A DNA stretch of 64,000 nucleotides from Magnetospirillum gryphiswaldense MSR-1 v2 (GTDB lineage Bacteria; Pseudomonadota; Alphaproteobacteria; Rhodospirillales; Magnetospirillaceae), in NCBI RefSeq assembly GCF_000513295.1, contig NC_023065.1, forward strand, positions 4,301,797 through 4,365,796. The letters are read 5' to 3'. Positions 60,750-62,538 of the stretch are shown one piece after another. The first letter of the stretch is position 1. Each line of letters begins with the position of its first letter. Under the pieces are notes generated by a model. The model saw only the letters and a list, made by a program, of their open reading frames with translations, was not told the origin of the DNA and searched no databases. Both the position numbers and the translations under genes were made by a program.

Positions 60750-61769
60750 TTATTTCTTCAGATAATCCTTGATCAGGACTTCGGCGATCTGAACGGCGTT
60801 CAGCGCCGCGCCCTTGCGCAGGTTGTCGGACACGCACCAGAACGACAGGCCGTTGGCGATGGTCGGATCCTTGCGGATGCGGCTGACATAGACCGCGTCC
60901 TCACCCACGCATTCCACCGGGGTGACGTATCCGCCCGGCTCGTGCTTGTCGACGACGATCACGCCCGGCGCCTTGGACAGGGCGCGGGTGGCGGCTTCGA
61001 CCGAGACCGGGTTCTCGAACTCGACATTGACGCATTCGGAATGGCCGACGAAGACCGGCACGCGCACGCAGGTGGCGTGGACGTCGATGGTGGAGTCCAG
61101 GATCTTCTTGGTCTCCACCGTCATCTTCCATTCTTCCTTGGTCGAGCCGTCTTCCATGAAGACGTCGATCTGCGGGATCAGGTTGAAGGCGATGGGCTTG
61201 GGGAACTTCTGCGGATCGCGGGCGTCGTTGACGAAGACGCCGCGGGTCTGCTCGAACAATTCGTCCATGCCTTCCTTGCCGGCGCCCGACACCGATTGAT
61301 AGGTGCTGACGACCACGCGCTTGATCTTGCCCAGGGTGTGCAGGGGCTTCAAGGCGACGACCATCTGGATGGTCGAGCAATTGGGATTGGCGATGATGCC
61401 GGACTTGGTGTACTCGGCGATGGCTTCCGGGTTCACCTCGGGGACCACCAGCGGCACGTTGGGGTCCATGCGGAAATGCGAGGTGTTGTCGATGACGACG
61501 CAGCCGGCGGCGGCGGCACGCGGGCTGTGAATCGACGAGACCTTGGCGCCGGGCGACGACAGGGCGATATCGGTGCCCTTGAAGTCATAGGTTTCAAGAT
61601 CCTTGACCTTCAGAATCTTGTCTTCGCCGAAGGACACTTCCTTGCCGACCGAGCGGGCCGAGGCCAAAGCGACCACTTCGCTGACCGGGAAATTCCGTTC
61701 GGCCAGGGTCTGCAGAATTTCGCGGCCCACATTGCCCGTGGCTCCGATCACAGCAACCTTGTAACCCAT
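60750..61769 (-). CDS. asd: Aspartate-semialdehyde dehydrogenase
   Basis: 339 aa from ATG 61769 (AACGGAGAA upstream). NADPH fold MGYKVAVIGATGNVGREIL; nucleophile C131 in GIIANPNCSTIQMVVAL; EGxx-type STYQSVSGAGKEGMDELFEQ; catalytic His in VHATCVRVPVFVGHSE. Reduces aspartyl phosphate in the common branch leading to Lys, Met, Thr and diaminopimelate. Its mRNA begins with a Thr/Lys-rich leader peptide and attenuator (61833-61999), so expression is predicted to follow charged tRNA-Thr/Lys. Confidence 0.97.
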   Translation of the reverse strand: MGYKVAVIGATGNVGREILQTLAERNFPVSEVVALASARSVGKEVSFGEDKILKVKDLETYDFKGTDIALSSPGAKVSSIHSPRAAAAGCVVIDNTSHFRMDPNVPLVVPEVNPEAIAEYTKSGIIANPNCSTIQMVVALKPLHTLGKIKRVVVSTYQSVSGAGKEGMDELFEQTRGVFVNDARDPQKFPKPIAFNLIPQIDVFMEDGSTKEEWKMTVETKKILDSTIDVHATCVRVPVFVGHSECVNVEFENPVSVEAATRALSKAPGVIVVDKHEPGGYVTPVECVGEDAVYVSRIRKDPTIANGLSFWCVSDNLRKGAALNAVQIAEVLIKDYLKK

Positions 61770-61832
61770 GCTTTTATTCTCCGTTCCGATGTGGAAGCCC
61801 GAAGCCTTACCCGGGGGACGCTTTATCATGCG

Positions 61833-61860
61833 AAAAAGCCCGCGGGAGCGTCCGCGGGCC
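61833..61860 (-). terminator. Attenuator terminator (segments 3:4) upstream of asd
   Basis: In the asd sense, CCGCGGGC (61838-61845 on the + strand) pairs with GCCCGCGG (61852-61859), loop of 6 nt, followed by U5 (61833-61837). It sits 63 bp before the asd start and after the leader peptide stop, so it can only serve asd as an attenuator. Segment 3 also pairs with segment 2 upstream, which would prevent this hairpin. Confidence 0.8.
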
Positions 61861-61880
61861 TTTTTCGTGCGAATACGACG

Positions 61881-61916
61881 AACCGGCCCGCTTACGCGGT
61901 GGTCTTAGTGCCGGTT
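61881..61916 (-). promoter_or_regulatory. Antiterminator / anti-antiterminator segments of the asd attenuator
   Basis: Read on the asd strand: segment 1 AACCGGC (61910-61916, inside the Lys-Thr-Gly codons of the leader) pairs with GCCGGTT (61881-61887). Segment 2 GCGGGCC (61885-61891, starting right at the leader stop) pairs with GGCCCGC (61854-61860). The two pairings share bases and are mutually exclusive; the second excludes the terminator. This is the standard ribosome-position attenuator layout. Confidence 0.7.
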
Positions 61917-61999
61917 TTAGTAGTGGCGACGAAGAACGCCGCCCGGACCATCTGGTCCGGGACGCCAGGGAACGCAGCAAGGCAATGCCGGTTACGCAT
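61892..61999 (-). CDS. asd leader peptide (Thr/Lys attenuation)
   Basis: 35 codons from ATG 61999 with GGAG six bases upstream. The peptide ends VATTKTGTKTTA: six Thr and two Lys within its last ten residues before TAA, encoded by ACT, ACC, AAA and AAG. The first 25 residues are unremarkable, but their DNA contains an 8-bp hairpin (CCCGGACC / GGTCCGGG, 61942-61961) that could pause polymerase. Stalling at Thr or Lys codons would cover segment 1 and favour antitermination of asd, whose pathway makes both amino acids. Confidence 0.75.
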   Translation of the reverse strand: MRNRHCLAAFPGVPDQMVRAAFFVATTKTGTKTTA

Positions 62000-62021
62000 G
62001 GGGTTCTCCATCAACCGGGCA

Positions 62022-62051
62022 TCTTTAGCGCAAGGCGGATGGTGATTGCAA
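62022..62051 (-). promoter_or_regulatory. Predicted promoter of the asd leader
   Basis: On the asd strand: TTGCAA (62046-62051), 18-bp spacer, TAAAGA (62022-62027). It would start RNA near 62015, just before the leader ribosome site. Moderate match to sigma70. Confidence 0.35.
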
Positions 62052-62082
62052 GGGCGATGCTCGCGGGCGTGGCCTTCGGCCC

Positions 62083-62119
62083 AACCTTTTGATTGGCGCC
62101 TTGCGCCAATCAAAAGGTT
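62083..62119 (-). terminator. 17-bp perfect inverted repeat at the end of the 62110 gene
   Basis: AACCTTTTGATTGGCGC (62083-62099) and its exact complement (62103-62119), with a 3-nt loop. It overlaps the last codons and stop of the upstream leftward gene. No U tract follows, so it may be an RNA 3'-end stabiliser or a weak terminator; it insulates the asd leader. Confidence 0.6.
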
Positions 62120-62463
62120 TCCGAATTGGTGACCTCGACCGCCTGCCAGACCATGCCGAGCACGCGGTCGATTTCCTCAAGGGTGGCGTCGTCGGCCAGG
62201 GCCGGGATGGGCATGTCGATGCCTTCCTCTTCCAGCAGGTCGCGGGCGCGACCGACATAAAAGTCACGGTATTCGGCGGTGGTGCGGAAACGGGCATTGA
62301 AGGCGCGGTCGGCCTCTTGCCGCAGCGCCAGCAATTCGGCCTGCTCGGCTTCGGTCAAGATGCCTTCGCGGCGCAGCAGTTCGGCCTGGCGGGCTTTCGC
62401 ACTCTCCAGCCGTTCGCGCCAATGGGGGTCGTGATTGGGCATCAGCCGGACGGTGGCGCCCAT
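62110..62463 (-). CDS. Hypothetical small coiled-coil-like protein
   Basis: 117 aa from ATG 62463 (AGGGAGA upstream). Charged, mostly helical: WRERLESAKARQAELLRREGILTEAEQAELLALRQEADRAF, then TAEYRDFYVGRARDLLEEEGIDMPIPAL and EIDRVLGMVWQAVEV. No signal or membrane segment. No family recognised. Its last codons are part of a perfect inverted repeat. The next gene upstream starts at 63033 on the same strand with a 75-bp gap, so they may form an operon. Confidence 0.6.
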   Translation of the reverse strand: MGATVRLMPNHDPHWRERLESAKARQAELLRREGILTEAEQAELLALRQEADRAFNARFRTTAEYRDFYVGRARDLLEEEGIDMPIPALADDATLEEIDRVLGMVWQAVEVTNSETF

Positions 62464-62538
62464 GATGCTCTCCCTTCGCTTGTCCTTGCGGTCAGGATAA
62501 GCCGGGGCGGGCGTCGTGTCACCCCTTGGGTTTCGTCC

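Follow-up and report, generated by a model that had tools for sequence, protein, structure and literature searches.

A predicted threonine/lysine transcription attenuator upstream of asd in Magnetospirillum gryphiswaldense, with counterparts in related alphaproteobacteria

We analyzed a 64,000-nucleotide stretch of the Magnetospirillum gryphiswaldense MSR-1 v2 genome (assembly GCF_000513295.1, contig NC_023065.1, positions 4,301,797 to 4,365,796; hereafter the window, whose own numbering is used throughout). Its minus strand, to which all features below belong unless stated otherwise, carries between 62009 and 61769 a Shine-Dalgarno sequence, a 35-codon open reading frame (ORF) ending in VATTKTGTKTTA and a stop codon, three RNA segments (2, 3, and 4) with a U5 tail, and asd, in that order. 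The gene predicted to be controlled, asd (61769-60750), encodes a 339-aa aspartate-semialdehyde dehydrogenase (Asd), based on domain matches to the NCBIfam equivalogs NF011456 (517.7 bits, cut-off 223) and TIGR01296 (461.7 bits, cut-off 324.2) and to two Pfam domains. Among the named relatives fetched, the closest Asd was that of Magnetospirillum sp. UT-4 (L001), with 87% identity. Asd makes the common precursor of lysine, threonine, methionine, isoleucine, and cell-wall diaminopimelate, and threonine and lysine are the end products of two branches leaving aspartate semialdehyde.

The Shine-Dalgarno tetramer GGAG (62009-62006) stands 6 nt before the leader ATG. The leader ORF itself (61999-61892; MRNRHCLAAFPGVPDQMVRAAFFVATTKTGTKTTA), delimited by sequence and conservation, runs from the ATG at 61999 through 35 codons to a TAA ending at 61892, and it forms part of a longer ORF in a mechanical ORF list. 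Within its Lys-Thr-Gly codons lies segment 1, AACCGGC (61916-61910). Segment 2, GCGGGCCGGTT (61891-61881), adjoins the stop codon without a gap and consists of two overlapping parts: GCGGGCC (61891-61885), the partner of segment 3, and GCCGGTT (61887-61881), the partner of segment 1. Segment 3, GGCCCGCGG (61860-61852), serves both as antiterminator partner and as terminator 5' arm, while segment 4, CCGCGGGC (61845-61838), forms the terminator 3' arm and is followed by the U5 tail (61837-61833). Beyond the sequence, these assignments draw on codon choice in relatives for segment 1, on pairing tests for segments 2 to 4, and on folding for segment 3. The RNA from 61828 to 62000 folds with a z score of -3.89, and none of 200 dinucleotide shuffles folded as well. 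A preliminary description of this DNA had claimed a ribosome site, a leader, four pairing segments, and U5 in this order before asd; all are present at the right positions, and its claim of Thr/Lys control codons suited to the regulated gene is borne out by a Thr/Lys run preceding a gene that NCBIfam confirms as Asd.

Upstream of the leader, a 117-aa ORF (62110-62463) has no Pfam or NCBIfam match. A near-perfect inverted repeat at 62083-62119, AACCTTTTGATTGGCGC and its complement around a 3-nt loop, overlaps the 3' end of this ORF and looks like a gene-end hairpin. Reading by hand against the cTTGcc/TATaaT consensus, as given in the available part of PMC9549626, yielded one possible, weak leader promoter, CTTGCA (62052-62047) with TAAAGAT (62027-62021). 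A scan of 61700-62500 found no sigma-70-like promoter on either side of the 3:4 hairpin, and so neither places nor excludes one behind it. This result suits a reading in which the hairpin merely ends a short upstream transcript, the Thr/Lys ORF is an unrelated small gene, and asd has its own downstream promoter, unregulated by the leader. The same reading gains from the hairpin being terminator-like on the plus strand too; a consensus scanner in fact listed it as a terminator on that strand only, in our reading probably because A5/U5 extend the stem so that it absorbs the U-tract. The comparative data given below nevertheless make it improbable.

To compare the locus among relatives, we took asd upstream regions from named genomes, from the window's family, order, and class, and from the Bosea order (Hyphomicrobiales). 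The family sample comprised 48 regions from 55 genomes searched; the other samples were selections, namely 61 of 188 (other families of the order), 87 of 197 (other orders), and 50 of 146 (Hyphomicrobiales) genomes with an asd match. Two rows without upstream sequence (L068 and L069) were left out. From 282 oriented regions we removed six duplicates (L131, L132, L134, L136, L137, and L087) and three truncated or shifted regions (L222, L097, and L059), giving 273, in which L010/L203 and L019/L210 were kept although they seem to be the same genomes counted twice.

At least 8 Thr/Lys codons in 12 occurred in 55 of the 273 regions but in none of their 273 antisense counterparts and in none of 2730 shuffled sequences. 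Thr plus Lys gave the top count of all 190 amino-acid pairs, the next being Ala plus Thr with 37. These shuffle, antisense, and amino-acid-pair controls rule out a chance ORF.

For a count by lineage, we asked for at least 6 Thr/Lys in 12 codons and a stop codon 55-200 nt before asd. Such a leader preceded asd in 40/48 regions of the window's family, 22/61 of the other families of the order, 8/87 of other orders, and 35/50 of Hyphomicrobiales (L285-L334), as well as in 10/66 of the named rows L001-L067 and 0/11 of L070-L080, whose labels include no alphaproteobacterium. The antisense control gave 1/246 over the four lineage samples and 1/323 over all rows. Of the family misses, seven of the 48 fell below the Thr/Lys threshold and the other, L085, failed solely through the position limit, its leader lying 237 nt upstream. 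In L085, 179 nt separate the end of the attenuator from asd, and this interval contains a long inverted repeat, as if an element had inserted. Two family members, L119 and L121, retain the terminator hairpin before asd, but their Thr/Lys run is gone (scores 5 and 1).

Of 72 leaders, 60 have a Shine-Dalgarno-like tetramer ahead of an in-frame start codon that lies 12 or more codons before the stop. Over the last 14 leader codons we saw no purifying selection on the peptide: 27 codon changes were synonymous and 59 were not, a synonymous share of 31% against 31% expected. Within genera, the last 10 leader codons vary most at third positions (12 columns versus 5 and 6).

Our own terminator finder reported a terminator in 167 of the 273 regions. 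Where a terminator was present, we compared regions with at least 6 Thr/Lys among the last 15 codons to those with at most 4. With the leader, the strand pairing with the terminator 5' arm begins directly behind the stop codon in 60/66 regions, at a distance of 2-7 nt (median 3) counted from the stop's first base; with at most 4 Thr/Lys codons, it takes this position in 1/60. The terminator follows the stop by 25-39 nt (median 34) and ends 42-179 nt (median 60) before asd. Because segment 2 sits right behind the stop, a terminating ribosome can hide it.

We aligned 43 dereplicated loci out of the 63 that passed the geometry filter (alignment A1). In the terminator helix, 91.0% of cells were paired and 7 of 12 pairs had changed on both sides in at least one sequence, and none of 500 shuffles reached as high on four of five measures. 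The antiterminator helix 2:3 was paired in 93.4% of cells, compared with 20.9-46.8% when one strand was slid. Covariation in 2:3 did not exceed that in shuffles of the 43 loci, because its strands hardly vary; this is expected, as segment 3 has to stay complementary to segments 2 and 4 alike. Three divergent loci (L138, L141, and L146) follow the same logic in other letters, GCGGCC with GGCCGC. Shuffling segment 2 weakened 2:3 in 37 of the 43 loci at p <=0.05, a count that is partly circular since the loci were chosen partly for this pairing, whereas the 60/66 geometry count is unfiltered; for the window's own 2:3 helix, p = 0.037. Antiterminator 2:3 and U-tract terminator 3:4 are mutually exclusive, the arrangement by which ribosome-mediated attenuators are recognized.

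The proposed protector helix 1:2, which overlaps the control codons, has weaker support. On its own, the window's 1:2 helix is no better than with a shuffled segment 2 (p = 0.11); 1:2 beats shuffles in 6/43 loci, and 21-34 of the 43 rows pair at each position. Codon choice speaks in favor of 1:2. In leaders with Lys-Thr-Gly, the Lys is AAA in 30/31 loci, while other Lys codons in the same leaders are AAG in 28/29 (p about 1e-14), and the Thr is ACC in 30/31 as opposed to 108/154 elsewhere (p = 0.001), although these p-values overstate independence because the loci are related. The third base of AAA is the outer base of segment 1, where it pairs A-U. An AAG codon would still permit G-U, so codon choice supports 1:2 without proving it. 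One locus, L129, has changed both sides of one 1:2 pair (AACTGGC with GCCAGTT). The compensatory changes that the preliminary description had proposed looking for in segments 1 to 4 are therefore clear in 3:4, scarce in 2:3, and limited in 1:2 to one double change plus codon choice; relatives keep the leader and its Thr/Lys codons, together with both the 2:3 and the 3:4 pairing.

We searched genomes with a covariance model of the element. In the window's own genome, the model scored 110.3 bits at asd and 41.3 bits at the next-best place; 54 matches had E <=1, those after asd scoring 41.3, 34.4, 31.5, and 29.9 bits. We read these next four places as candidate further copies, and in none is a stop codon preceded by a Thr/Lys run like that of the asd leader, though the 41-bit place contains a frame rich in Thr. 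Across 198 genomes of the order, 64 of the 65 matches scoring 50 bits or higher are found no more than 320 nt upstream of asd and on its strand, and the remaining one (in G073), likewise on the asd strand, is 549 nt upstream. With a cut-off of 37 bits, 97 matches were listed, of which 76, spread over 75 genomes, are linked to asd; three of the 21 others lack an asd position in our asd list. Matches at E <=1e-6, whether linked to asd or not, occur in 85/198 genomes of the order and in 13/241 of the class sample, and since the model is fitted to relatives of the window, a lack of matches in other orders carries little information. One genome (G078; contigs C87 and C1) has two asd copies, each with an upstream leader match, of 80.8 and 49.3 bits.

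These results bear on the reading of an unrelated small gene with a separate asd promoter. Thr/Lys content, a segment 2 placed behind the stop, and 2:3 complementarity travel together before asd, strong model matches are almost confined to asd, and an unregulated small gene would need none of these features.

We modeled the proposed attenuation by folding the nascent RNA while a ribosome footprint occupied one codon position at a time. At the stage where segment 3 exists but segment 4 has yet to be transcribed, the probability of 2:3 was 1.00 for P-sites on codons 24-32, 0.57 on codon 33, 0.06 on codon 34, and 0 on codons 35-36; three footprint sizes shifted these borders by a codon or two. 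The 43 loci gave 7.2 expected 2:3 pairs with the ribosome stalled on Thr/Lys and 0.6 with the ribosome at the stop; in 41 loci, all but L019 and L127, the two values were 3 or more apart. In the folding simulation, then, ribosome position is predicted to decide which helix forms.

The model also suggests how the timing would have to work. Before segment 3 is made, 1:2 has a probability of 0.86 without a ribosome, 0.19 with one on codon 10, and 0.39 with one on codon 20. Once segment 3 is made, equilibrium gives 2:3 (1.00) rather than 1:2, both without a ribosome and with one on codon 19, so a no-translation (super-attenuated) state must rest on 1:2 having formed earlier. In the complete RNA at equilibrium, the terminator is favored at every ribosome position tested (0.59-1.00), and the switch must therefore be kinetic, as it is in classical attenuators.

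The Hyphomicrobiales leaders have a different downstream part. A U-tract terminator-like hairpin was found in 3 of the 35, whereas among 36 chosen loci of the window's type, 34 have one. The C-rich post-stop RNA of the Hyphomicrobiales leaders can base-pair with a G-rich stretch immediately ahead of the asd start. Pairing of the post-stop RNA with the last 45 nt before asd beats shuffles in 13/35 Hyphomicrobiales loci versus 2/36 of the window's type. The persistence of the leader with so few terminators, together with this pairing, speaks for an action on translation, by post-stop RNA masking the asd ribosome site, or for Rho acting on an untranslated leader, with the hairpin secondary in either case. 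For the window we give this only a very slight chance, as its type has the U-tract terminator in nearly every chosen locus and long-range pairing near chance. Even among the 35 Hyphomicrobiales loci, the accessibility of the asd start predicted by folding did not depend on where the ribosome stood (p = 0.66), and we set aside occlusion of the ribosome site there as unsupported by folding.

We compared the leader with known RNA elements. No Rfam family reached its gathering threshold in the window. The leader gave a weak full-length match to RF00506 Thr_leader (25 bits, E = 0.012 in a 371-base search), far below that family's gathering score of 55 bits. The thrL leader of gammaproteobacteria is short and combines end-product control codons, Thr and Ile, with alternative antiterminator and terminator helices. 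The window's element has in common with it the use of end-product control codons and the antiterminator/terminator alternative, but the codons of thrL are Thr/Ile before thrABC, in contrast to Thr/Lys before asd here. Lysine riboswitches and T-boxes control such genes elsewhere, which lends some plausibility to a metabolite-binding riboswitch or T-box in place of a translated leader; we rejected this, as neither matched at threshold or was among the 11 weak Rfam matches (E <=10) around the leader and the conserved feature is the Thr/Lys ORF, and we accord it practically no weight.

Ribosome-position attenuators are described in alphaproteobacteria for the Caulobacter ilv leader (PMC4117421) and for trpL/rnTrpL of Sinorhizobium meliloti (PMC10117765), in the parts of these papers available; they belong to the same mechanism class as the predicted asd attenuator, with other control codons and other genes. 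The asd motif of Lactobacillales, RF01732, listed in the available part of PMC2864571, is named after the same gene, comes from other bacteria, and is not among the window's Rfam matches. Table 1 of PMC9549626, the Rfam-based elements of M. gryphiswaldense, includes no asd leader in its available part.

The nearest precedent is SEP5 of S. meliloti, a translated small ORF carrying six Thr codons and three Lys codons toward its 3' end. The available part of a 2023 paper (PMC10117765) assigns it to the 5'-UTR of a gene under the name 'aspartate dehydrogenase', calls it possibly a leader peptide, and describes it as conserved in Sinorhizobium only, giving no RNA structure there. In our reading this gene is probably asd. 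Compared by description, not by sequence, SEP5 and the window's leader share a Thr/Lys cluster near the 3' end of a small ORF in the asd 5'-UTR; the Hyphomicrobiales leaders related to SEP5, unlike that of the window, mostly have no U-tract terminator. The preliminary description knew of no Thr/Lys attenuator at asd in alphaproteobacteria. Beyond the SEP5 remark, none is described in Rfam or in the available parts of the open-licence literature, and as far as these sources show, the asd attenuator was undescribed as an RNA element; the idea of a leader peptide, however, is not wholly new, having been anticipated by that remark. Our comparison, drawn from sequences and from the available text on SEP5, indicates that the same kind of leader is much more widespread and supplies an attenuator anatomy for it, while the first hint belongs to PMC10117765.

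Judged by its sequence, the asd leader is a real, conserved, and well-formed Thr/Lys attenuator of the classical mechanism class, from which we infer its action in the cell. We estimate a probability of about 0.87 that it is a ribosome-position transcription attenuator, predicted to control asd by the supply of charged Thr and Lys tRNAs. A ribosome waiting on the Thr/Lys run would cover segment 1 and free segment 2, which would then pair with segment 3 before segment 4 is made, and transcription would be expected to read through into asd. A ribosome at the stop would cover segment 2, so that 3:4 could form and the RNA would end near 61833. Without a ribosome, 1:2 would be favored up to the synthesis of segment 3, and 3:4 could follow only if 1:2 then persisted kinetically. 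Shortage of Thr or Lys should thus raise asd expression, and one leader would report on both amino acids because they are end products of two branches from aspartate semialdehyde.

The two leader forms suggest a longer history, which we offer tentatively, as somewhat less than an even bet. One Thr/Lys-sensing leader may have stood before asd since early in alphaproteobacterial history, with lineages replacing the output part while keeping the sensor: in the window's order the output is an intrinsic terminator and, in Hyphomicrobiales, a mostly terminator-less RNA pairing toward the asd start. Such a leader, responding to end products of two branches at once, would act as a gate with two inputs at the point where the pathway divides, aspartate semialdehyde.

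M. gryphiswaldense has long 5'-UTRs whose regulators are mostly unidentified according to the available part of PMC9549626, and the asd leader is a concrete candidate among them. More broadly, a conserved attenuator at asd would explain how many alphaproteobacteria tune this node.
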